From the NCBI RefSeq assembly GCF_047495875.1, contig NC_092497.1, positions 29,455,889 to 29,519,888 on the forward strand: a stretch of DNA of 64,000 nt, in the 5' to 3' direction. Position 1 is the first letter of the stretch; each line of letters begins with the position of its first letter. Below the pieces are notes generated by a model, which ran no database searches, was not told the origin of the DNA, and was given only the letters and a program-made list of their open reading frames with translations. Position numbers and translations under genes: made by a program. This document shows positions 3,201-53,345 of this stretch, one piece after another. The DNA comes from Pithys albifrons albifrons (taxonomy: Eukaryota; Chordata; Aves; Passeriformes; Thamnophilidae).

Positions 3201-6200
3201 GTCCCTTGTGAATGAATATTGAGCCCAGTACTGTTGAATGTCTTCTTAAGTGATCTGGTGGGTAGGACCAAGTGTTCTCAGATGAAGTTTGCCAGTGATA
3301 TGAAATGGAGTGAGGAAGTGGGCACTTTGGAAGGAAGTGCCACCGTGCTGGAAGACCTAGGTAGGCTGGAATATTCATCAGGAACAAGTGTAAGGCTTTG
3401 CATTTTGAAAAATATAGTCTGTGAGCGGAGCACCCACTGGGATCTACCTGGGTGCTCTGGTGAAAGGGACCTGGGGGTCCTGTTGGTCTTTAATAAGCTC
3501 AATATGACCTTATTAATAATTAATAAGATCAATATGTGAACACTGTGGCAATCCACCAGGATGTTTCTGGATGGCATCAACAAGGCCATCCCCAGCAGAG
3601 ATAAAGAAGTCATTATCCCACTCTGCACTTGTTGGGCTACACCTGGAATACTATGTTCAGTTTTGGGGTTTTTCCACTATGAAAAATAGGTATGGAGACC
3701 ATGGACAGTGTCTGGAGCTGGTCACAAATATGGCCAGAGGACTGGGAAGCCTGTAATATGAGGAAGGACTGAGAGAACTATTCAGTCTTGAGAAAAAAAG
3801 GCTAAGAGGAGACCTTATTGCCATGCTCCAGTATTTAAAGTTTGGCTACAAAGGAGATGTCCTTTTTAAAAGGTGTTACATTGAAAAGGCAAGGGATACA
3901 AGTTACTCTTGGGGAGATTCTAATTGGACATAAGTGGAAAATTTTTCATCATGAGAACAATCATCCATTTGCGTAATTCCCCCAGGGGGATTGTGGATTC
4001 CCAAACACTGACAATTTTAAGATTGAGCTGGACAGGGTGCTAGGCTGTCTTGTCTAGACTGTGCTACTGCTGAGAAAGTTTGAACTTGATGATCTTTGAG
4101 GTCTTTTGCAAACTTGTATTCTATGATTCTATAAAAGATATATATATGTGTGTATGTGTGTGTATTCGTTTTATAACTGACAGAGTTTTACAGAATAAAA
4201 CAGTTCATGTAAAAACATTGAGGGTAAGTTTGACTTTTTTTCCCTTTCCCTCTAACACTCTAGATTACATTTTCAGAAGGTCAAGCTCTGTCCACAATCA
4301 CCCTGACAATTCTTGCCGACAGTGTTGCAGAGCTTTCAGAGACTGTGGAAATCACACTCACCCACGTTACCACTATGGGTGTTGAAGATACCACAAAAGG
4401 AGCTGTCATTGATCCCAAGAGGGCAAGAGCTGTGCTTACCATTTTACCCAGTGACTCTCCGCATGGTGTGATTGAGTGGCATATAGAATCTCTCTTTGTT
4501 AAAACCACAGAGCCAGAAGGTAAATCTGCTTCTTGATTCTTAGGAAAGCATGTGTGTTTTTTTTTAAAGTCAGCATTATTGAAGCTATAACGTTGGTTGT
4601 ATATATATAATACATGTATCATGTATCTATCTTGAAGTTTTGCATTAAAGTTGTGTAAACAGAAATAGTCCTTAAAATACATAACTGTGCTATTATGTTC
4701 CATACATTTTATGATGTATTTCACATATCAGCATTATCCAGCCATTGTTTAGAAGGTAAGTTATTTTTATCTTAGCATCTTGTGTTTCAAATCACAAATG
4801 CGTAAAATACTTCTGTTTATATAAAAACCTGAACTTGCCCATTTAATGAGATTAATATTTTGTTTAAAATAATTTGCATAGAAAGACTTTCTTCTAGAAG
4901 TGGCTCAAAAAGGAAAGCTTTTTGCTTTGTGGGATAAGGGAAGGAAGGAAACAGTAGGAATTAATTTCATTGCAATAGAAAAGTGAAAGAGTATTTTGCT
5001 GCTTGCCAGATGCATGCTTGATTGGGTTGTGTCAGTTTTCCTTCTAGGCATCAAGTGAAGTTGTGATCTTCCAGGCAGTTGGCCAGAGGAGAAGTGCTGT
5101 GATGCTCAGGCTCCTGCCCTCCCTTCTGGCCCAGGGAGCTCGGCAGCTGATGCTTTGTCATTCTCTTCAGCCTCTCTGCAGCTGCCTGATGGGCTATTCA
5201 TACTTCTATAGCCCAACAGAAATTTCCTGACAATTTCATGTTCTGTCCATATTAACAAATGGCATATATGAAAAATACATTTTCTATCAGAGCATATTAC
5301 CTCCTTACCACTTCTATCTTCAAATGACTTAGTGTAGGTAGGTTTTAGTGTCTGAAAGTATTGTGAAAGGTTTCTGTTGATTTCTTGCATACTCACATAT
5401 TATAAACATTTATGCTTTGAAGTTAAGATTCAAGAAATGTGTTTAGCTTTTATTAGTTTCACAGGTGGCTTTTTCCAATCTTTAAGTGTTGTATTTTCTA
5501 ATGAATTATATTCAGGTGATAACTGGAAAGTAATATTTAATTAACACAAGTAATAGAAACTGGTTTCAAGTTCAAAGTGTCAAGTTCTCCAGTCATAAAC
5601 TGACCACTTTTAGCCAGCTGATATGTTTTGTCATTTATTGGAAAAAATGGCAAATCTGCTTTTCGAAATGAGAGTTGAGCCTGACTGATACTAGTCTGTC
5701 TCTTCAACATTGGAGTTAAGGAAATGTAAAATTTATAGCCAGAGTGACTGCCCTCGATGCTGCTTTTTGTGTTAGAATCAGTAGTGTTCACCTAGGCATG
5801 TAAGGCCAGGAAAAATATGAGATGGAAGTTTTGAAAGGTAACTGAAGTGTTGAAGTAATAATCTGTGTAACAAACATATAAAACTGTAAATTTTCTATAT
5901 TTTATTTTTCCTCTAGATGCAGTTTTTAAATGCTTTCCTGATGTCTTGTGTTGTGTGTTCACACCACTTCTGTGTGCTCATTTGCCTGAGCTCTTGAATT
6001 ACCCGGGTACTGCTATGTTGCTGAGCAGAAGTGAATTGGGCAAGCAGCTCCAGTAGTTAGGTGAGCTGAAAATCACGCAGGGCAAGGGTAAAAAGGAAGC
6101 TCTGTAGGGTTCCATCCTCTGCCTGGTTCTCTTTAACATCTTCATGAATGTCTTGGATGCAGAACTGAAAAGAATACTAAATAAGTTTGCTGACAACACT

Positions 6201-8410
6201 AAATTGGGAGGAAATGTTGACTCCCTGGAAGTCAGGGAGCCCCCAAAGAGAGACCTTAATAAATTAGAGAGATGGAGAATCACCAAGCATAGGAAGTTCA
6301 ACAAGGAGAAGTGCTGGATTTTGCACCTGGATGGAACAACTGTGGTTGTGTGTATAGACTGGGAATGAGATGCTCTAAAACAGCACCATGGAAAGGAACC
6401 TAGGGGTCCTGGTGGATGACAAGTTGAACTGGCAGCCAGGAGGGCCAACTGTGTCTTGGAGGGCATCAGGCAAAGCATCACCAGCTGGGTGAAGGAGGGG
6501 ATTGTTCTGCTCTGCTCTGCACTAGGGAGGCTCACCTTGAATATTGTGTGCAGTTTAGGGCAGTGCAATATAAGAAAGATACTTAGATATTTGAGATTGT
6601 CCAAAGGAGGACAATGAAGATGGTGAAGGAACTGGAGGGGAAGTCGTATGAGGAGTGGCCGAGGTGACTTGGTCTGTTCAGCCTGGAGAAGAGGAGGCTG
6701 AGGGGAGACCTCAGTGTGGTCTTCAACATCTTCACAAGGGTAACTGGAAGGGCAGGTACACATCTCTTCACTCTTGTAATCAGTGTCAGGACTTGAGGAA
6801 ATGGCATGAATCAAGGGAGGTTTAGGTTGGATATTAGGAAGAGGTTCTTCACCCAGAGGGTATTTGGACACTGGAACAACCTCCCCAGGGAAGTGGTCAC
6901 AGCACCAAGCCTGACAGAGTTCAAGAAGCATTTGTGCAATGATCTCAGCCCATGGTGTGATTCCTGGTGTGTCAAGGCACTGGACTGGAGTTGGACTCAA
7001 TGATCTTGATGATCCCTTTCAACTCAACATATTCTATGATTCTAAAACAATAATTTCTTGATTTTTTCCCCCTCCTTTTTATAGGGCAAGTGAATTCCAC
7101 TTCTCTTACTCTACAAATTCTTCGAGAACAAGGATTTGTCGGAGAGCTTGCAATTCATTTGAGCACTGCACCAAACTTTGAACTTCCTCTCTCCAACCGA
7201 GCAACTGAGAACGAGGATTATATACTGGAAAAGAAAACAGTCATTATGGCAGAGAATGCAGCAGCAACTTCTGTTGTAGTCACTATTTTGCCAGTGAGTA
7301 GCCTCATTAATAGCCTTAAAATGTTTTTTAAAGAAAGGGAAATGGTACTGATTTTGTACTAGAAATATATTCTTGCAGCCACCTCTCAAAACAACTTGTG
7401 TATTCACCATTGAAAATGAATAAAATTTTTTGGTTTGTTATAGTCCCAAGATTAACCTATAAAAATGGCAAAGAAAAATATTATAAATGCCTTAGGTGCT
7501 TTTTGTTTCGCTAACTTGTTGCAGGTTTATACAGAGGATTTATTCTACTTTACTTACTTCTCAACAGATTTGTTCTGTAGATCTGAAAATGTTATTTTTG
7601 ACCAAATATATGTATATTATTTAAAAATATTAAGAATGGAGGTAATGCTTTTCAAATTATGTCTTACTTTCTGAGATCTAGCCAGATGTTTTCTAATTAA
7701 CAGAAAAAAGAGACAGCTGGCACTACTTTCCACTGCTCTTGCCAATTTGGAGTCTCAGCAAAAGTAGTCTTCTTCACCTTTCATGTGGTATGAAGCAAGG
7801 CATTGGTTACATGGTCCCAAATGCTGAAAACTTTTGAATAGAAAGCAACCTACAAGTAGTAACCTTCCTGCATACATTATAACTTGGAGTGTTTTATTAA
7901 TAAAGTTTGATTTTAAAATATTTTTTTCAGGACCATATTCCAGAATTACAGGAAGTATTTATAATCAATATTACTGATGTGCAGCTGGTTACTTCTTCAT
8001 CTGGAGGTCAGCCAAGTGTGAAGAGGCTTGGGTTAGAAATAGCTGAAATAACAATTGAGGAAAATGATGATGCCAGAGGAATATTTAATTTTAATGTTAC
8101 AAAGGTAAGTAAGTCTGAATGAAAAATATTTGAAGTAGCATTCCAGCGAGAGAGTCTGGGTTTTTTAGACCAGTTCTAAGAGTGTTCTGATAGGCTTTAT
8201 GACACTATAGTGTTCTGGGTAAAATGGCCAGATACCAGTTAAACAATTCCTTATTAAGAGGTTCATCTTAAGTAATATACAGAATTTATTAGGAAGATGG
8301 CAGTGCTAAAACCAGTGTCATAGACAAGGACCTCAGAAGCTCATGTAATCCAGGCCTTTGGTCAAAGCAAGGTCAATGCTAAATCCAGAGCGTTTTACAA
8401 GTAATTATGT

Positions 8411-8441
<31 letters not shown>

Positions 8442-11400
8442 ACTGCAAGTCAATTTGCAAAACAAACACAAAAAGTTTGCTGAGACACTCAGCAGTTTAT
8501 TGTTGAATTTACAGGATATCACTGGAGCTGTTTCTGGTTATGAGGTGCCACCACCACAGAATGTACTGAAACTTCCAGTTGTTCGACAGGCTGGAAGGTT
8601 TGGGTCAGTAACTCTGTACTGGGAAGCCATTCATTCAACTGCCAGCTTTGAAGACTTTGCACCGTCATTTGGAAACCTTACATTTTCAGAGGGTCAGGTA
8701 TGCATTTTCTGAAAGTTTAGCTGTCTCTGGGTTACCAGCTTAAGAGTTTCATGTGTGTTCTTCTACCAGAATTTGCATATTTTAATTTAAAATATTTTAT
8801 TTATGGCCTTGTGTTTGTGAATGGTGCTCCCAGCTTCAGTTCTTGAACATGGAAAAACAGAATATTCATAAGCATTGACCAAGTAGGCTTGTATGCCTTT
8901 GATACCTGCACAAATGAGGACATAATTTATAATAAACCCTATTACACTGAAAATTTGTGACATAATCCATCTTCTCTGTAAATTCTCAGAATAAGCCTGT
9001 ATGTTTTCTTAGCTGTATTCTACATATAGTTTTAAATTTCATGCTGCACCTGAGAATACTTAGTGTACACAAGGGATTTTGATTTCAAGTGAATATAACT
9101 GCTCTTCAGCAAATAGGATATACTTAGTGAGCAGAATTTTGACTGAAGTACAATATTGTCAACCTGCATTATCTAGTGAGTAGCAAAGCAGAGAAGTCTG
9201 CTGATTTTAGCATACAAGATTTACACTGATGGAATTAAAAACTACCCATGAGATTATGTCTTCTTTTTATAAATATAGGAGTATGAGAAGAAGAATGAAC
9301 TGAAAAATGTCTGTTTAAATGCAATTTACCCTATTTTAAATTTTTTCAAACAATTCACAGAATATTATAAATGAAACTTTATTGCTTTTTTCTTTTTAAC
9401 CTCTCTACAGGCTACAGGAGAAATAGAAATCACAATAATAGATGACAATGAAGTTGAATTCCTTGAGATTTTCAAGATTGCCCTGGTGAGAGTAACGGGT
9501 GGTGCAAGACTTGGAAATGACACCCTGGTAACTGTTGCTATTCCACCAAATGATTCTCCTGTTGGAGTATTTGGGTTTGAGGAGAAGAATGTGAGTTTAA
9601 TTTGGATTGTACTCTTTTCTGCTAAAGCTGGGTAGTGTGTTTGTGTCACTACTACATAGCTGATTTTTGTAAACTTTCATTGCAGTGGAAGACATGACTC
9701 ACTGAAAGGGTGTTAGTGCTTGTCTTCATCTAGCTGTGTCAGATTGGAATAACAGTGAAAGTGCTGCTGCATAAATACAGATTTCTGTGTGACTGAGTCA
9801 ATTTAATTCAGTATACTAAGAAATCAGGACATCCCAGCTATGATTTTTTGTGGACTTTTGAATATTAAAATGGTTTTATATTAATCTTTGTTACTATAAG
9901 TAATATTTGAAAACAAATTACAAAGCATATCTGATCTTAGTTCTTGCAGTGCTTCTGCTCTCCATTTTGCTGGTGCTGTGCCTCCTGGTGACTCATTGTC
10001 TAGTTGTTTTGAATCATAAGGCATACAGAAATAACGAGTGACTAATCTTTGGCAGCAGAATTCAACACATTCCTTATGTCTGTTATCTTCCTGTTCATTT
10101 TCACTTCTCTTGTTGTTTTGGATTGTCATTGATAATGTTTTTTTTTGTTTTTTATCTCAAATTGATATCAAAGCCTTTTGCTACAGCCTTTCCAACACTC
10201 TCCTTCTCCATCAGGTAACAGTGAAGGAACCTCAGAAACCTGATGATTCTGCTGCAGTTGTTTCACTCACTGTGAGTCGAAGTCAGGGAGGACAAGGAGC
10301 AGTTAAAGTGCTGTGGATTCTCGAGGAAGCAGCCAGACATGATCTGACCCCTCTAAATGGTACCCTCCATTTCAATGAGGTATTTCTGATATTGCTATAA
10401 ACTATTTACTATTAGATTTACAAGTTATTTCTTCTACTTGTTGTTATGTGTTTATAGAAGTAGAGGGCTACTAAGTATTATACACTAAAAAAGGTCAGTT
10501 AGAACTGGTGATGTTAGCAGTATTTAGTGTTTTTTCAAGCAGTAAAGGAAAGCTGACACGCTCTTTGTAGGGCAGCATAATGTAAGCATTAGGAAGGTAG
10601 GTTCTTCAACCCTCAATTTTTTTACAATTAAGAAAGAGGAATCAAAATGTACTGAATGTGAATAATGATTACAGAAACATTGCACTACAGTGTCATGGAA
10701 TCGAAAAGGAAAATTTCTGTTGAAAGGGTGAGAAGGATAAATGAAGGCTCAAGAACTGCAGATGAAATAAAAAATCAAACTAAAGCAAAAATCACTTGAG
10801 TAACTTTCAGACTGGACAGTGGTATTTTATTTTGTATTTCATGGCAGGTTAAAACTCTGTGGTGGGAACCAAAATATCGGATACTGATGCTGCCTTAATT
10901 CTGATCTTTTGCTGTCTACTCAAAATATTTAATGAAGAAAGGTGTTTTAACAAACCGTAGTCTATTCTCTCTGTACAAGTCTGCTCAGCAGTAAATAAAC
11001 AGGCATGCTGGTAATTTTAGTTTTAATCAGCTGGATAGACAATTTTTGTAAGACCACCAGTATCTGGCACAGTTTTGTTATCATTCTGCTATCCTTCCTG
11101 TAATGGTAGGCTTTGACAGTGTTTTTTCATCTTGAAGTTTTAAATGTGCATAAGTGTAAGAATACAATTACGTATATGTAGTATACTAAAGTTACACAAT
11201 ATGTATGCCACTTCCAACAACAAAAATGTGGATTAGACAGAAATTTTCTGTGACCTAATATATCTAATCTTAATAATGTGTTAATCCTTAGAATGTTCAT
11301 GTGCTCTTGAATATCCACTTTCTGAAGGAAAAGATTTTGTGTAAAGTTTCCTCTGAGTTCACAGCCAGTATATGAATACAATTTCAAAGTACTTTCAAGT

Positions 11401-23400: not shown

Positions 23401-26400
23401 TTGATAACAAGGCTTGGATCTGGAAAATATTACTGTGAGTAATGTTGTGAAGGGTGGCAGTATTTCAAAGCCCTGCTTTACATTTTAAAATAACTTCCCA
23501 TCTTTCTCTGGCTTGCTGGCTATAACTGTAGATCTGTTAGCATCTCTCTACTCCACAGCTTTCCCTTGGCACAGGAAGTTTGTTTGGTGTTTAAAACCAG
23601 TATTACTTACAGTGGTTGTATTGCGTTCCTGCATTGTGTCCACAACACGAAGACATACTTTCCTTTGTCTCTCCATACTTTATTTGTCATTTACTCAGTA
23701 TCCTGTGCTGATATAAGATGCATTAACCCTGTGGAGGGCTTTTCAATTCAATAATTGGAAAAGCAATTTTAAGGGACTGTCTTTATGTCTTGCTTTGAAT
23801 GGTTGCTATTGCTTTTCTCTACTGTTTCACATTTTCTAATCACCTTTCTTACAGCCAACATTTGTTGCTCACTGAAAATTATTCTGCTTGATTTTTTTAC
23901 TTTTCATTATTCGTATTTCCTCTCTCAGCTTTGATATCTTTTCTGTTTCAGATCAGGATTTACAACAGCTGAAATTGAGCCAATGGGGATCTTCCAGTTT
24001 GATCTTAATTCAAGATCTGTTTCAGTTGAAGAAGATGTACAAACCATCACACTGCATGTCCAAAGATTGTTTGGTTTTCAGAGTAATCTCACTAAATTGA
24101 CATATGAGACCATTCCGGGAAGTGCCAAACCACAAGAGGACTTTATACCTATCTACAATGGAGAACTTATGTTTCTGCATTTTCAGACAAGTGCTGTGAT
24201 AGAAATATCAATAATTGATGACACTGTGTCTGAAATACAAGAATTTTTTTTTGTAAATTTGACTTCTGTGGAAATTCTGGATGTTCAACCTATGAGCCTT
24301 GCCTGGAGTCCACGTTTGAATCCAGCTTTCAGTGTTGCAACCGTCAATATTCTGGCTAATGATATTCTTCATGGAATACTAAGTTTGGGGCCCCAGTTTG
24401 TTTATGTTGAAGAAGATGCAAACAACAATACCTTCAACACAGCAATGCTTCAAATTAGAAGGACCAAAGGGTTTACTGGTGATATTAAAGTAACTGTTAA
24501 AACCTTTGGGGGAATGAGTGCACAGAGTGGGGTAGATTTGTATCCTTTTGGAAATGTTCAGGGAAAATCAAACTTTACATGGGCAATGGAAGGAGAAGAT
24601 TTTGAAGAACAGTCAATCTCTCTGATTTTGTTGGATGGAGAAAGAGAAAGCAAGGTGTCCATAAAAATTTTTGATGATGATGAGCCTGAAGGACGGGAAT
24701 TGTTTTATGTTTTCCTCTCAAATCCAGAATATGGTGCTCAGATTGTGGAAGGGAAGGATGAACATGGATTTGCTTCTTTTTCAACAGTAATTATTGCAGG
24801 TAATATTATTTTCCCCAGAAAATGAATATATATATTTGAATTAAATCACACTCAACTATTTTTGTAGCAATTTTCATGTAGAATTTGTAATTCTATATGG
24901 CAATAAGCAGGATACTCTATTTCCAAATCTTAAGTTTCCAGATCAGAGGAAGCATCTTATGCACTAAGTCCACTGTGCATCCCTTAGCAATGTAGCTCAA
25001 AATATAGATGCTGTTTATCTCTGTTCTTGTCCTATTTCACTTCATGACAGAAGAAACCTGAGCTTAAGTGTTTACCTTGCAGATGTAGAAGCATTTGCAG
25101 GCTCATTTTTCTTTGCCTTTTATCTTGTGCCAACCTTTCCACTGCAACCTGAGGTTCCCATCTCAAAAGATCCAAGAATTCCAAATTCAGAGAACAAGTG
25201 GGGTACTTTATGAAACAGACCTGTGGCTAAGAGAAGTGCCACCAATTCATTTTGGTCTGAATGTGAAAGTGTCCAATAAGGTTGCAGAGATGCTGAGCTT
25301 CCATTGTTCCTTCTCATTTCTCAAGCAGGCATTCAGGAATGCTTGGGGCTTTTCCTTTTCCTAACTTAGTCTAGAAAATATGATTTTGTGAATGAAAATA
25401 TCATGGAGCATTTGAATACAGGAAGACTGAGTTCCTACTGAGACAATAAGATTATGTAAAACAGGAGAGACCTGAAAATTTAGTAATTCATTATTTAAAT
25501 AATGCATTATAACAGCAGTCCTTGATGGGAGACAGTGTAAGTTGACATGAGATTTAGAATGGATATAAGGAAACATTTTTTTTATTGAGGACAGAGAGGC
25601 AGTGGCACAGATTGCCTGGGGAGGTTGCATGGTGTCTCTCCATCCCTAGAATAATTCAAGTCCCAGCTAGACAAATCCCTGAGCCATCTGGTCTAGTTTC
25701 AGTACTGACTAAGCTTTCAGAATAATATTGGACTAGAGGGCCCTTTTAATTTGAATTATACTGGCATTCTGTCAGATGTATTTCATATACTTTGTACTTT
25801 GTATTTCACTTTTGCAATGTATGAGGGTTGCACAAAGCATAAAACCCGGCTTCTGCTTTTGTTCTTTGATACTATGCAGTTCATATCTGCAGTGTGGTCA
25901 TCCTTTCCTGAGGATGAAGGACAGCAATAGGCCTACAAGAGTTTTCTTTCACTCACTGTGCTCCTTTGAAAATGTGATGTCAGAACTCCAATTTCTTTTA
26001 GCTTTCAGATATCTCTCAGGCTTACAAAATTTAACTGCAATATAGATTAAGTTTTAGAAACAAGTTGGGAATTGGAACCATTTAGGCTAATCAAGAAGGT
26101 AAGGTCCAGTATTCACTGGGAGTTTTGGGTAATTAGATTGGCTTAAGAATTCAATATGTGTATTGAGAACCAGGATTAAACCATGCTGCCAGAGGAGTGT
26201 ATGAAGAAGCCAAGACCATATGCAAAAGCAGACTGTAGGAAACAGGTGTTCTGTTCATGTGCATTGTTTCTAGAATTTACCACAGAAGTAACCAGTTGCC
26301 TGTGTGTGCAAGTTAACCAAAGAAATAGGTGTATAGGCACAGGTTGGAGTTTGAGCTTGTATTGAATCTCACGTGCTCCAGAGTTAGACTCTCAGCACAA

Positions 26401-32400: not shown

Positions 32401-35400
32401 GAAAATGGTTGATTTTTTTCATAAATAAACTCTCCTAGCTAAATGTTTTCAAAAGGGGTCTAGTATTTCACAAATAAAAATCCTAAGTTTTCAGTAGGAG
32501 ACCTTTGCTGCACAGAATTAAATTAATAGATAATTTAAAAAAAATCATACAGTTGAATAATATCCCAGAAAGTTAGTTTCCACATAAGGAAAGTTTATTA
32601 TATTACCAGACATAATGTCAAGATTATGGCAACTGTCAAAAAGAAAAAGAATGTGAAGAATGAACCAGTATCTGCAAACCTCATGGAAGATAAAAATAGT
32701 GCTACTTCACAGGGAAATGAGTCTGTGCAGCACTCCTAGATAAATCCTTGTATCTGCATAGCGTGTGTATTCTATGGTGTTTGCTTTGCTTTGAACTAAA
32801 TGGATTGTTTGTCTTTCAGGTATATATACCAGGACAGAAAATATCAATTGATAATAGTTTGGACAGAGATTTCCAAAACCTTTGTTTTGCTTTTGTTAGT
32901 TTTTTATGTATTTTTGATGCTTGTCTCTACCCTAAACTAAAGAGATTTATGGTGCAATCATAATCTTACAACTACCCTTCTGGAATTCAGAAATGTGCTA
33001 TCATTTCTGTAGTATTTATTCACACAGAAAAGTTTTGTGGGTTTTGTTCTGAAAAAGAAAGAGAGCAGTGCTGAGTACTATTGGCAATGTATATAATTCT
33101 TTCCCTGGGTTTGATGGATTGCTAATTCAGGGAGATAATTCATTTAATGTAATATTTGTGTAATCCGTTGCTGCATTTTGATAGAGGACTTCTTTTTTAC
33201 CCTTTTAAAGTACATGTATTCTACAGCAGCTGGTTTTGAACAATTACATATATCTTAATGTTTCCTAAAACTCTTTTGGTTTATTTTAAGGAGCTAAAGA
33301 AACCTGAACCTATTGGTCGGACCTTCATATCTCCAGCTGTGGCAGGACAAGATTTTACCAGATCTGAAGGTTTATTGACTTTTGAACATGGACAGAGAAG
33401 TGCATTCCTAGATGTGACCCTGACTCCAAAGACAGAATCTTTAAACCCATTTCCTAAACGTTTCCAGGTTGTACTTTCCAATCCCACAGGTGGTGCCAGG
33501 GTAGATGACCTGTACAGTATTTCTAACGTCACCATTGTCTCAGATTTGGATTCCTTGCCAGTTTGGGGGCTGATTGATCAACTGCATCAGCCTCTTGATG
33601 ACACCATTTTACACAGAATCCTTCAGAATCTGAATGTCAAAGTGGCTACAGAAACTACAGAAGAGCAACTTACTGCTGTAGTGCATATAATAGATAAGGT
33701 AAGCACATCCTTCTTTTTCTTGAATAACCAATGACTTTAATAAGAGTATGATAACCCATAGGCCTGTGATAAAATCGGGGCAGATCACATCTACAGCAGT
33801 GACTCAGGGGCACAGACTGTAAAAGTAAAAGTAGAAATTGTGAAGTCCCTCAACCAAGGAAGGAGTTTCTCTGGTGCTTAGGATGATGGCAAGAAAATCA
33901 GAAATCAAATAAGTTGAGCAGGGTGACTAGTATTGTGTACATACCTATAGTTCTACATTTTCTATTGTGCAAAATTTTCCCTTTGGTTTCATAGAGCTTA
34001 TATTTTCTTGACTTCCAGACCACATCTTTGTTGCTTTTAGTCCTGGCACAAGTCCTGCTCATATCTTTACAGCTGATGTCAACACACAAGCAAATCCTAC
34101 AACAATCAGCTGGAGTCTGCTGTATTCTTAACCAGGCACCAGTCTTTATTCCTGCAGCAGCTTTGGGAATTGGGTTGCCAGGGTAGCTGAGCACTTAAGC
34201 TTTGCACTGAGTTCTGTGAAAACTATGGACTAGTTTCGTGGCTTTCTGTCTCTTATGGACTCATATTTAGCACAGGAGCTGGAAAGTGTCTAAATACCTA
34301 GACATAAAGTATTATAACAATATTAATTCATTTATGATTTTTGCAACACAGAAAATAATGTAAAAAATTCTCAGGACTCAGCAATCTTTGGTTTGTGAAA
34401 GAATGAAAAATGCCACATCCTTTCTTTAATAATAAAATTCCTAGTAAGCGTATCTTTATGGAGTCTTGACGGGTTGTGTCTTATGCCTTGGTAGCAGTGA
34501 TCAGAATGTGGGAAAAATATACTGAACTTTCAGAATGAATATTGGAATCACAATGAGGATGCCACTAAACCATTCAGTGTGAGGAAATGTTACAAACAGA
34601 CTCTTTTGCACTAAATGATTTCTTCTCTTCTCACTAGGTTACAGGTGTAGGTGAAAAACAGTTACTCACAAGTAAAAGCAGAAGTCTTTTCTATGAGATA
34701 CTCTGTGCTCTGGCTAGCCCAAAACGTGAGGACACAAGGGGGTATAGCCTGCTTGCTGAGGTGACTGAGAAGTTTACATTTTCTCTGTTGACTGGGATAA
34801 AGTGTGGATCAGCAGGAGAAAGGTTAGTAAACTTGAATTTGTTTTGGAAATACATGGCAACTTGCCTGTATTGAAAATTTAAATTACATTTTCAGAGAAG
34901 GAACTTATCTACCATCAAATATGTTGCCTATATGAAAAAGTCTTCTCTGGGGACACCCCTTTGTCGTGGGGGAGAGGCTTGCGTGCCCTCATGAGGTTGT
35001 GTGCTATGCTAGCGGTGGTTTGTGCCTCTGGCAGGATCTCACATGCCAGACAGGTCTCAGTTGAAGGGTCAGACAAAGTGTGTCCATGGTCAGGATGGGC
35101 TCGCCAGCCCTCTGGCAACCATCTCAGGAGAAGGACAACTCCAACTCCAAACCCAGGCACATGGAGCTCTCTTAGTCCTGTAAGGCCATCTATCTAAGAG
35201 AAGGATACTCTAACCAAACCTACATCCTGAGGTATTCGCTGTCACTGTCCAAGCTTGCTCAGCCCTGTCAGATGAACCTCAGGAGTAAAGGGTGGGGCCA
35301 GTTCTGTGCACGCTGTGCCTCACCTAAAAAAATCCATTGCTCAGGCCCAAAGGGATCACCTACATTGCAAAGCCCTGTAGCGACCCATGAGGGTCAAAAT

Positions 35401-38400
35401 GGCAGGTGATAGGAAGCGCTGGAAGCTGCAGACCCAACCCTGCATGCAGGTGGTTCAGGACATTGGTCGCTCAAGACTGGCATCTCACAGCATCCTGAAT
35501 GACCAAGCAGCTATTTTTTTCAGGAGAGTCCTACTTTCTCCACACACAGAGGGGTCTAGAAAAGGTGGTCTAACCAAATCTCATCTCCACCCCTCACCTG
35601 TTGGCTAACCATGGCCAATGGGCATCTTCTGATGTGGCCAAACAAAGACAAAACAAACAAATAATATTTATGCTGGAGAGCTATGTTCTAAGCTTTGGGT
35701 AAGAGTTAGCAACCAGAAATTTCTACTGGCATTTTGTAATTCATGTGAGTTTGGTATTGCTCACTTGAACACCATTTAAAAATTTTTAAAACTACCCATC
35801 GTTTCAAATTGCTGGTTTTATCTGCACATGCAAAATAACCCCTTGTCAGGCCAATGGGCAGGGGAAATGAGTGACTGCAAAATGAGATTATTCTCTTTTA
35901 TGAGACAGATGATTTTAAACAGTTAGTTTCTCCCTCTGTGAATCTATTAAGAAACTGGTAGTTGAATGTGTGTTCAGTGTTCAGAACTTGAAAGTTACAA
36001 TTCTTTATTCCAAGCTTTTTTTTGCATCATCTGTTGGGGAAAAGAGATAAACCAAGATCATCCATTTCAATGCCTCTCCTTTTAGACTCATCTGTACATC
36101 AAGTTATAAAGATGAATGTTTTGATAACCTAGTTTACCATGGAGGAGTTTCAGTTGCAGCTCAAAGGGAGCAAATCCTAGAAGGGAAATGGAGCAACCAA
36201 AACACATGATTCAACCCCTCTTTTTTTTTTGCGCAGAAACCGAAGCAGTGTGTCATCAGGCTAAAAATGGTGAAAGAGTAAAGTATTAACACAAACACAT
36301 TTTAGAGTCATTATGTAACAAATAGTGAAGCTTTGTTCTACTTAACAGCCTATTGCATTTCCATTTCAACAGAGGCCGAAATATCCTTGACAGCTGCCCG
36401 TACATTGCAATAATGGCTCACAACTGGTTTCCTCAGCAAATCAATGGACACAGATTTAATGGAAAAGATGGGGATTCTATTCAAGTACCTGAACATTTAC
36501 TAGAGGTCTCTGTTTTATTATCACCTCCTCAAGAAGAGAACTGTGAATCTGTGCAGTTCACAGAATACAGCAGTCAGCAGTGGTTCCTTACAGGAGATAA
36601 AGAACTTGCCCTGAAGAACAAGGTTTGATGATAATGCAGCTTGTTTTTTCAAAATTTTTTTTTAATCTAGGTATTGTTCAAAACATCATAATATATTTCT
36701 AATATTGTGAATATTCTTATAGTCATTTCTATTTAAAATGAACACTATTGAATTTTAGTATTAAATTTATCCTTACATTGTACATGTTATTTCAGGTTTT
36801 TTCTATGAGCTTGAAGGGTCGGAGTTCACAGCCTTTGAAAAATAACAATGAAGTAATTTATCGCATTTTTGCTACAGGAAGTCGGATTGTTCCACAAAAG
36901 TCTCTATGTCTCCTCTGGAATCAAGCTGCTGAAAGGTTATTTTATTGATTTGTTTGATTTTCCAATTCTACCATGAAGCTGTGTATTTGCCTTAGATGTG
37001 ATAACTGCAATTAAATAATTTGCAAGTATAAGTTTGATATCTTTCCTGTCTTTTTTCCCTAATTTTTCAGGCCTCTTTACTAGTGCCTAAAACTCTCCTT
37101 ATAAAGAAAGAGTAGCTATTTTAGATCGGGTATATCTCAGACTTCTCCCCTTACTTTTTCCACTGAAATACCATTTAGTTTATGTAATGATGCGCTAAGT
37201 CACAGTAACAGGCCATAAATCCCGGAATTCCATCACTGAATTAATATTAACGAATTTGTAGAGAATTATGTTCTGTATCCTGTTGAGATCTACTTGGTTT
37301 AGATGCAATTTCATTAGACCAACTATGTCTTCAGAAGGAGAGTCATCAGAATTTACCTATATGCTCTCATTTTATCTATACGTGATTTCCCTTTGAAACG
37401 GATTAGGGTGTCACTGGTAATACCCTTTGTCAAAATCATTTCAGCAATACTGAAAAAAATCCCAAAACATGGGGTTTAGTTTCTAAACAGCAAATAGCAG
37501 TGTAAAATGTTCTCCATAATGGGTAAGGTATTGAGCAAAGTTAAGTAGCAAACTATTTGAAAAGTCAGGCAGATGTAGAAGTCTATCAGAAATTTTAAAA
37601 ATGTGGGCACAAAAATTCCCCAGTGGAAAAAAAGTTCATGTTAATATATTTACAAATATTTTTAATAATAAATGTAAAAAAAAGGCAATAAACAATACTT
37701 AAATCTTGTATAAATGTGCTATTCTGAGCACTGCAACTGAAAGATTACAGAAAACATTCTATTGCAGTAGTTTAGAGAACTTGGTATTTGGGGAATACAA
37801 CAATTTTCAAGCCTGCTTACCATGTGAATTATGCAAGTCCGTTTCCAACTCTGTGGAACCGTTTTTTTGCAGCTGGCTGTCTGATAGTGGGTTCTGCAAA
37901 GTGATTGATGACACATCAAATTATGTGGAATGTTCCTGTTCTCATATGTCCACTTATGCAGTTTACGCCCAAACAGATAACTTGTCTTCATACAATGAGG
38001 CTTTTTTCTCTTCTGGATTCATCTGCATTTCAGGTCTGTTGATTTAAGAGGATTTTCTCATTAATAACAACTGATTACTAGTCAAACTGATGGATTATTA
38101 ATGTTTTTAGTAACTGATGTCAATCTTTTCTATTTGGTGGAATACTGAAGGAGTGTTCACTTCATGGTATTTAAGGTGCTATCTTGCCTGAAGTTTGCTG
38201 AGTGACAAATTTTGCCACTGGGTAAAAAATGTTAGCAAAGGAATATGTTTCCTTGTGATGTTTTTTGAATGGTAGAAAGGAGAAATATGTCATTCATTTG
38301 TGGGAAGAAACTTAAAAATCCTAAATTCACCTGTATCTCTAGCAGCAGTACAGTCATCCTCTTTGTCCAATCTCTTTGAAAATTTTAATTGACAATTTAC

Positions 38401-52966: not shown

Positions 52967-52979
52967 ATACATAGTGTTG
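52967..52979. repeat. Target-site duplication, left copy
   Basis: ATACATAGTGTTG, identical to 53333-53345, directly before the tRNA-like insertion. Confidence 0.85.
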
Positions 52980-52984
52980 GGGGT

Positions 52985-53057
52985 GGTCCCCGTGGTGTAA
53001 AGGAGAGCACTCTGGACTCTGAATCCCAAGGTCCTGAGTTCGAGTCACAGTGGGACC
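52985..53057 (+). other. tRNA-Gln(CTG)-derived head of the SINE (not a functional tRNA)
   Basis: Seventy-three bases with the shape of tRNA-Gln: six perfect acceptor pairs (GGTCCC/GGGACC), an A box TGGTGTAAAGGAG, the anticodon loop CTCTGAA in GGACTCTGAATCC, and a B box AGTTCGAGTCA. The seventh acceptor pair, two pairs of the anticodon stem and one T-stem pair are broken, no CCA or terminator T run follows, and it lies inside a flanked insertion. So it is a SINE promoter head, not a gene. Confidence 0.85.
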
Positions 53058-53152
53058 GTCCCCTGGCAGTAAATGCCTCCCTTCCATCCCCCCCCTGTCA
53101 GATCTTGGATGCTCAGCAAGGTCAGCCCTGGTTAGTACCGGGTGCTGTGACA
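53058..53152 (+). other. 5S rRNA-like segment of the SINE, internally deleted
   Basis: CAGATCTTGGATGCTCAGCA, AGGTCAGCCCTGGTTAGTAC and CCGGGTGCTGT align with the middle and the 3' end of vertebrate 5S rRNA (GATCTCGGAAGCTAAGCAGG, GGCCTGGTTAGTAC, CCGGGTGCTGT). About 26 bases of 5S between the two TAC triplets are missing. The part 53094-53152 is clear; extension back to 53058 rests only on weak similarity and on the length adding up to about 121. Confidence 0.75.
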
Positions 53153-53332
53153 GTCCCGAGGACTTCACTGTCACTGTCCAAGCTCGCTCGGCCGTGGCAG
53201 ATGGACCTTAGGACTTAAACGGTGGGGCCAGTTCTGCGAACGCTGAGCCTCACCTAAAAATCCACAGCGCAGGCTGGAAGGGCATATGGGGAGAGCCCTG
53301 CCCAAATCAGTGTTCACAAAGTCTGGCCATAC

Positions 53333-53345
53333 ATACATAGTGTTG
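53333..53345. repeat. Target-site duplication, right copy
   Basis: ATACATAGTGTTG, identical to 52967-52979. Confidence 0.85.

Follow-up and report, generated by a model that had tools for sequence, protein, structure and literature searches.

A tRNA-Gln head in front of a 5S rRNA-derived segment: a composite SINE with an AviRTE-type tail in a bird genome

The window analysed here, a 64-kb stretch of an 82.3-Mb contig (the assembly comprises 1.144 Gb in 53 contigs), contains at 52980-53332 a SINE insertion flanked by perfect 13-bp target-site duplications (TSDs). The inserted element is very probably a non-autonomous composite SINE mobilised by AviRTE, in which a 5S-headed SINE resembling GymnSINE gained a tRNA-Gln and in which Pol III transcription would start from the tRNA-derived boxes. 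Compared with a tRNA-less, 5S-headed SINE of the same genome, the composite has a tRNA-Gln added in front and lacks 26 nt that include the 5S C box; the best reading of this difference would be a change of Pol III promoter, from 5S type to tRNA type, inside one SINE lineage. The LINE, the 5S-headed SINE and the composite that apparently succeeded it are all preserved in one genome, which makes it possible to trace in the sequence how one Pol III promoter was gained and its predecessor lost, and to test this by assaying transcription. For phylogeny within the lineage of the host, the insertions should be useful markers.

The insertion and its family

The element is full length, as judged from own-genome copies and a 41-copy alignment, and lies on the forward strand. 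The 13-nt sequence ATACATAGTGTTG is found as an exact match on its left (52967-52979) and right (53333-53345) sides, bracketing the boundaries that an earlier note on this DNA had proposed, which are correct. From 5' to 3', the insertion consists of a tRNA-Gln(CTG)-derived head (52986-53058), a linker (53059-53064), a 5S rRNA-derived segment without its C box (53065-53152), a piece of an AviRTE-type 5' UTR (53153-53285) and an AviRTE-type 3' UTR (53285-53330), all on the plus strand. It closes with an (ATAC)n terminal repeat (53331-53339, plus strand) that runs into the right TSD, as seen in the sequence and in the 41-copy alignment.

The head is recognised by ARAGORN, by Rfam and by comparison with sister copies. 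ARAGORN calls a tRNA-Gln(CTG) at 52984-53061, the sole tRNA call in the 64 kb. Rfam at its own cut-offs returns no match on the window; at a relaxed threshold, the tRNA of the window copy scores 27.2 bits, below the cut-off of 29. In 20 sister loci, the Rfam tRNA model passes its cut-off in 17 and is detected beneath it in the other three. Sixteen of the same loci receive an ARAGORN tRNA call (14 Gln(CTG), one Arg, one Trp), the remaining four receive none, and Glu is called in none of the 20; locus L037 receives a Gln call and locus L041 no tRNA call. The Gln isotype is based on these ARAGORN calls. A tRNA-Gln(CTG) head, as the earlier note had suggested, is upheld by the ARAGORN call and by the 17 sister copies, with the window copy itself below the Rfam threshold.

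The A box of the window copy (TGGTGTAAAGG, 52993-53003) and its B box (AGTTCGAGTCA, 53037-53047) both lie on the plus strand. The family consensus, which reads AGTTCGAGTCT at the B box, agrees with 7 of 7 specified positions of the A-box consensus and 8 of 10 of the B-box consensus. The run TTTT is absent from the family consensus and present in 2 of 41 copies. On this evidence the 5' end of the family appears to carry what a SINE should have there, a Pol III promoter derived from a small RNA gene. The linker that joins the tRNA to the 5S part reads TCCCCT and has no CCA, which mildly favours a tRNA gene or precursor over a mature tRNA as the probable source of the head.

When the element is used as a query against its own genome, 42 rows are obtained, of which 40 (including the element itself) are near full length, at 90-100% identity (90-92% for the other copies). 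These come from the best 40 of 4246 first-look candidates that were scored, and the figure of 4246 should not be taken for a number of confirmed copies. The window copy, the 39 other near full-length rows and L037, a copy met in random sampling, make up the alignment of 41, in which tRNA, 5S segment and tail align throughout in every copy, with common ends. That the copies have one layout in common is partly an effect of selection, 39 of the 41 having been picked for their likeness to the window copy; the random copy L037 agrees with it. TSDs with a score of at least 8 are found in 23 of the 41 composites, versus 22 of 1640 mismatched control pairs. The composites therefore behave as a SINE family in general does, with many dispersed copies, common ends and TSDs, and the multi-copy family with a tRNA-5S order anticipated in the earlier note is present.

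These copies also bear on the simplest alternative, that pseudogenes of a tRNA and of 5S rRNA happen to be neighbours at one locus. Each part is indeed weak by itself in the window copy, but the same tRNA-5S joint recurs in many copies at unrelated sites and with TSDs, so that chance adjacency is already refuted and has practically no probability left.

The 41 composites fall into two variants according to a 6-nt CACACC stretch, present in 20 and absent from 21. Twenty systematic 10-kb samples of the genome (200 kb) yielded one composite SINE, one 5S-headed SINE and two LINE copies; a few thousand copies of each would be plausible, with a very wide error. Six more pieces, from the ends of small contigs (40 kb), yielded one SINE copy, L032, which is discussed below.

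The AviRTE-type tail and the 5S segment

The LINE against which the tail was compared is a near full-length copy at 5056-9060 (minus strand) of locus L042. It has a frame of about 3.3 kb with one in-frame stop, endonuclease (EN) and reverse transcriptase (RT) domains and a short 3' UTR. Protein matches to its RT half number 3351, of which 120 were listed. The named birds among the 120 listed are the suboscines Manacus candei, Pseudopipra pipra and Myiozetetes cayanensis, with an identity of 81-85% across 64-72% of the query, and several other listed matches are 80-83% identical over 76-83% of it. Among the listed matches that cover at least 95% of the query, identity does not exceed 74%, and those named are mainly Branchiostoma and Penaeus. 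The earlier suggestion of a bird-like host is right. AviRTE, in the part of its description consulted, has an ORF of about 3.2 kb and a 3' UTR of about 40 bp, and mobilised bird SINEs with bipartite UTR tails (PMC4844689). Matched to this description, the L042 LINE may be AviRTE, the lengths of its ORF and 3' UTR and its bird relatives being in keeping with it.

Against L042, the composite consensus is identical at 116 of 131 positions in the 5' UTR piece and at 37 of 46 in the 3' UTR, where the match on the LINE starts at the end of the ORF; the corresponding figures for the 5S-headed consensus are 127 of 142 and 40 of 46, with a CGT common to both parts at the joint. The tail is thus composed as in other AviRTE SINEs, of a LINE 5' UTR fragment followed by the 3' UTR, here those of a LINE in the same genome. 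The 5' UTR match accounts for the body of the composite, and the 'unrelated core' of the earlier note has to be given up. Its non-CR1 end stands: the element finishes in the LINE 3' UTR and (ATAC)n, and a CR1 tail is rejected.

Some features of other tails and LINE copies can be mentioned here. The 5S-headed SINEs of loci L074-L089 have two kinds of terminal repeat, (CATA)n and GATG-like, and an internally deleted copy of the AviRTE-type LINE (L050, 2516-5337) ends in GATG repeats.

Aligned to the 5S-headed consensus, the 5S part of the composite starts at the first base (GGCAGT) of the tRNA-less SINE and then carries, besides substitutions, a 26-nt deletion around TTGGATGGGAGACC. The deletion point lies at 53138-53139 (plus strand) in the window copy, and what is taken out is the C-box region, with the motif TTGGATGGGAGACC retained in the sister family and found in none of the 41 aligned composites. 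Numbered along L109, a 5S-like sequence on contig C11 (Rfam 62.7 bits, its 3' end cut by the stretch), the deletion starts at about position 79, and the C box of 5S occupies about positions 80-97. This deletion is the reason why composite copies fail the Rfam 5S model (RF00001), which the earlier note had proposed as a check: the window copy has no match even at a relaxed threshold, and the 20 sister loci contain a single match on a composite copy, at 19.9 bits versus a cut-off of 38.

The 5S identity of the segment is nevertheless real; it rests on homology to the tRNA-less sister SINE, which keeps the full 5S. Locus L018 also carries such a tRNA-less copy, whose head is a complete 5S that scores 54.5 bits in Rfam (cut-off 38). 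With this copy as a query against its own genome, the best 40 of 5453 first-look candidates were scored, giving 40 rows (itself at 100%, the others at 87-90%), and 16 of the 40 were fetched. All 16 pass Rfam 5S, at 46.9-67 bits, and the 5S-like segment of the earlier note is confirmed by way of these copies and L018. A tRNA head is found in none of 18 5S-headed copies in the upstream stretch examined (about 130 nt for the 16, together with L041 and with L018, for which only about 20 nt are available before it adjoins another copy). TSDs lie directly at the 5S head in 10 of the 18, versus 5 of 306 controls. On these counts the 5S-headed SINE, in which the C box is intact and the tail is that of the composite, is a separate family in the same genome.

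Genes for 5S rRNA need an A box and a C box, and tRNA genes an A box and a B box, according to the portion of PMC10498592 consulted. Because the C box is deleted, the 5S promoter of the composite should be silenced. We infer that Pol III would start at the tRNA-derived A and B boxes instead, since a 5S part without its C box can hardly serve as a type 1 promoter. The transcript would then pass the 5S relic and reach the 3' UTR and the ATAC repeats, an end that the AviRTE reverse transcriptase could take, and target-primed reverse transcription would generate the TSDs. The composite is thus apparently copied by AviRTE.

Order of events

In the origin we propose, a 5S-headed, GymnSINE-like AviRTE SINE would have gained a tRNA-Gln gene exactly at its 5' end. 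The SINE may have landed directly behind such a gene and been transcribed together with it, or the template may have been switched to the precursor of a tRNA; the C box could have been lost either before or after the tRNA was gained.

The opposite polarity, with the 5S-headed SINE derived from the composite by loss of the tRNA, would also explain why the 5S start and the tail are common to both families. We consider it very improbable. The 26 nt of the C-box region are retained in the 5S-headed family, and a composite that lacked them could hardly regain them in place; a composite with an intact C box is found in none of 41. The 3' UTR of the 5S-headed family is the nearer to the LINE (40 versus 37 of 46 positions), and the sampled 5S-headed copies are the more diverged, with a median non-CpG divergence of 0.061 (18 copies) versus 0.026 (41 composites), in sets that are biased by consisting mostly of top-hit copies.

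For the order of the two changes, the copy L032 has to be considered. It begins at the 5S start and has neither tRNA nor C box, and at the 26 sites that separate the two consensuses it has 16 composite and 9 5S-headed states. It could thus be a true intermediate, in which loss of the C box came first and a tRNA later rescued a promoterless SINE, and two other tRNA-less copies with partly composite states, L110 and L111, speak in the same direction, though they keep the C box. On the other side, L032 has a 6-nt deletion in common with 21 of the 41 composites, and its tail has turned into a tandem array. With L032 as a query, 47 rows were obtained and the upstream flank was read for 20: a tRNA head is present in 17 (BLAST), two retain only its last bases (L104 and L108, by eye), and the remaining one (L109/L110), headed by 5S and with no tRNA, keeps its C box, so that a second copy lacking both tRNA and C box was not seen among them. 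Several of the tRNA-bearing relatives carry the same '5S-headed' letters as L032, which is therefore most simply explained as a member of an older composite subfamily that has been truncated; its role as an intermediate is not supported, and we regard it as improbable. Three of the 20 flanks score above the Rfam tRNA cut-off and one receives an ARAGORN call, as Gly, and so many of these heads appear to be decayed or variant.

Two details of these copies are noted in passing. In L032, the 3' UTR part of the SINE has grown into a 13-copy array with a 30-bp unit (586-975). The scored matches to L032, 40 in number, include as a raw count at least 14 that lie <5 Mb from the end of a contig of known length (for example at 1.7-5.0 Mb on C2, and at 100.3 of 101.0 Mb on C4).

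Further support for the polarity from 5S-headed SINE to composite comes from L110 and L111, because they carry about half of the composite states together with a C box. L110, which lies beside L109, keeps the C box and CACACC and has 12 composite and 12 5S-headed states at 24 sites, with no tRNA within 120 nt upstream. L111, the second such element on C11, also keeps the C box and CACACC and has 11 composite and 11 5S-headed states at 22 sites; it directly follows another copy, and its missing tRNA says less. These copies suggest that about half of the composite substitutions were acquired by a 5S SINE that had its C box and no tRNA. An alternative is that their mixed states come from recombination within the local C11 cluster. 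The 5S-headed and composite SINE pieces L109, L110, L111, L094 and L103 are clustered on C11 at about 2.437-2.439 and 2.502-2.503 Mb, and one cluster adjoins, in opposite orientation, the 5S rRNA-like sequence cut at the end of the stretch (62.7 bits).

Relation to known SINEs and other features of the window

GymnSINE is an AviRTE-mobilised SINE of antbirds with a 5S-derived promoter, and the figure legend that describes it names no tRNA (PMC4844689). Like the composite, it joins a 5S-derived part to a bipartite tail of AviRTE 5' UTR and 3' UTR; the composite differs from this description in having a tRNA-Gln in front and a 5S part without the C-box region. The tRNA-less family of our genome has the 5S rRNA-derived head that defines GymnSINE and, compared by description, fits it, whereas the composite, with its tRNA head and no C box, does not. 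It is possible, if rather unlikely, that the composite has already been named, because GymnSINE itself or an entry in Repbase, Dfam or a suboscine library has the tRNA-5S layout. The 5S head of GymnSINE and its bipartite AviRTE tail of the same kind would agree with this, but the 5S-derived promoters of the legend, given there without a tRNA, fit the tRNA-less family (PMC4844689), and the open-licence literature searched, in the parts consulted, contains no description of a tRNA-first/5S-second AviRTE SINE.

ManaSINE1, of manakins and tyrant flycatchers, resembles the composite in having a tRNA-derived head and a bipartite AviRTE tail, but its head is a tRNA-Glu and no 5S segment is described for it in the part of PMC4844689 consulted, whereas the composite has Gln(CTG) and then 5S. 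In ManaSINE1 the tRNA-Glu sits directly on the AviRTE tail; among the sister loci of the composite the ARAGORN calls include no Glu, and the 5S part lies between head and tail.

AmnSINE1 is ancient and is not known to have an AviRTE tail. It is like the composite in combining 5S and tRNA parts in one SINE, but their order is 5S, tRNA, Deu domain and tail, according to the excerpt of PMC3234267 consulted. The earlier note had drawn this distinction, and it is sound: the alignment places the tRNA before the 5S part in the window copy and its relatives. We hold it to be an even question whether a 5S-headed (type 1) AviRTE SINE took up a tRNA-Gln (type 2), lost its 5S C box and spread as a composite, with the two stages surviving next to each other in one bird genome. 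Such a composite would mirror AmnSINE1 and might be the first SINE to have the tRNA first and the 5S part second.

Exchanges of head are known from other SINEs. PittSINE and TguSINE1 provide a passerine precedent, a new tRNA head having been gained, for which template switching was proposed; they differ in having tRNA-Asp and tRNA-Ile heads and CR1 tails, and in that the head was replaced and not stacked (PMC5729268, in part). The CR1 tail and 8-bp microsatellite (AUUCURUG) of these SINEs are absent from the composite. HaSE3 of Helicoverpa is a precedent for 5S and tRNA heads being exchanged while body and tail stay the same, but the change proposed is from a tRNA head to a 5S head, without stacking, and the common tail matches the insect LINE HaRTE1.1 (PMC3272025, in part).

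The composite puts an apparently new arrangement of the head on a chassis that is already known, and is not a design from scratch; by description it is set apart from GymnSINE. The chassis is known because the bipartite AviRTE UTR tail has been described for bird SINEs, including the 5S-headed GymnSINE (PMC4844689, in part). The 'different design, and possibly a new family' of the earlier note can thus be kept for the tRNA-first/5S-second head, and does not hold for the tail.

Elsewhere in the window, a 5' fragment of the AviRTE-type LINE is found at 34935-35652 (plus strand), 83% identical to the L042 LINE over 739 columns. Calx-beta repeats are recognised by Pfam at 23935-24825 (plus strand, E 2.1e-23) and, below Pfam's cut-off, at 33240-33734 (plus strand, E 0.0002). 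These repeats may belong to an ADGRV1-like gene, which would fit a Z chromosome.
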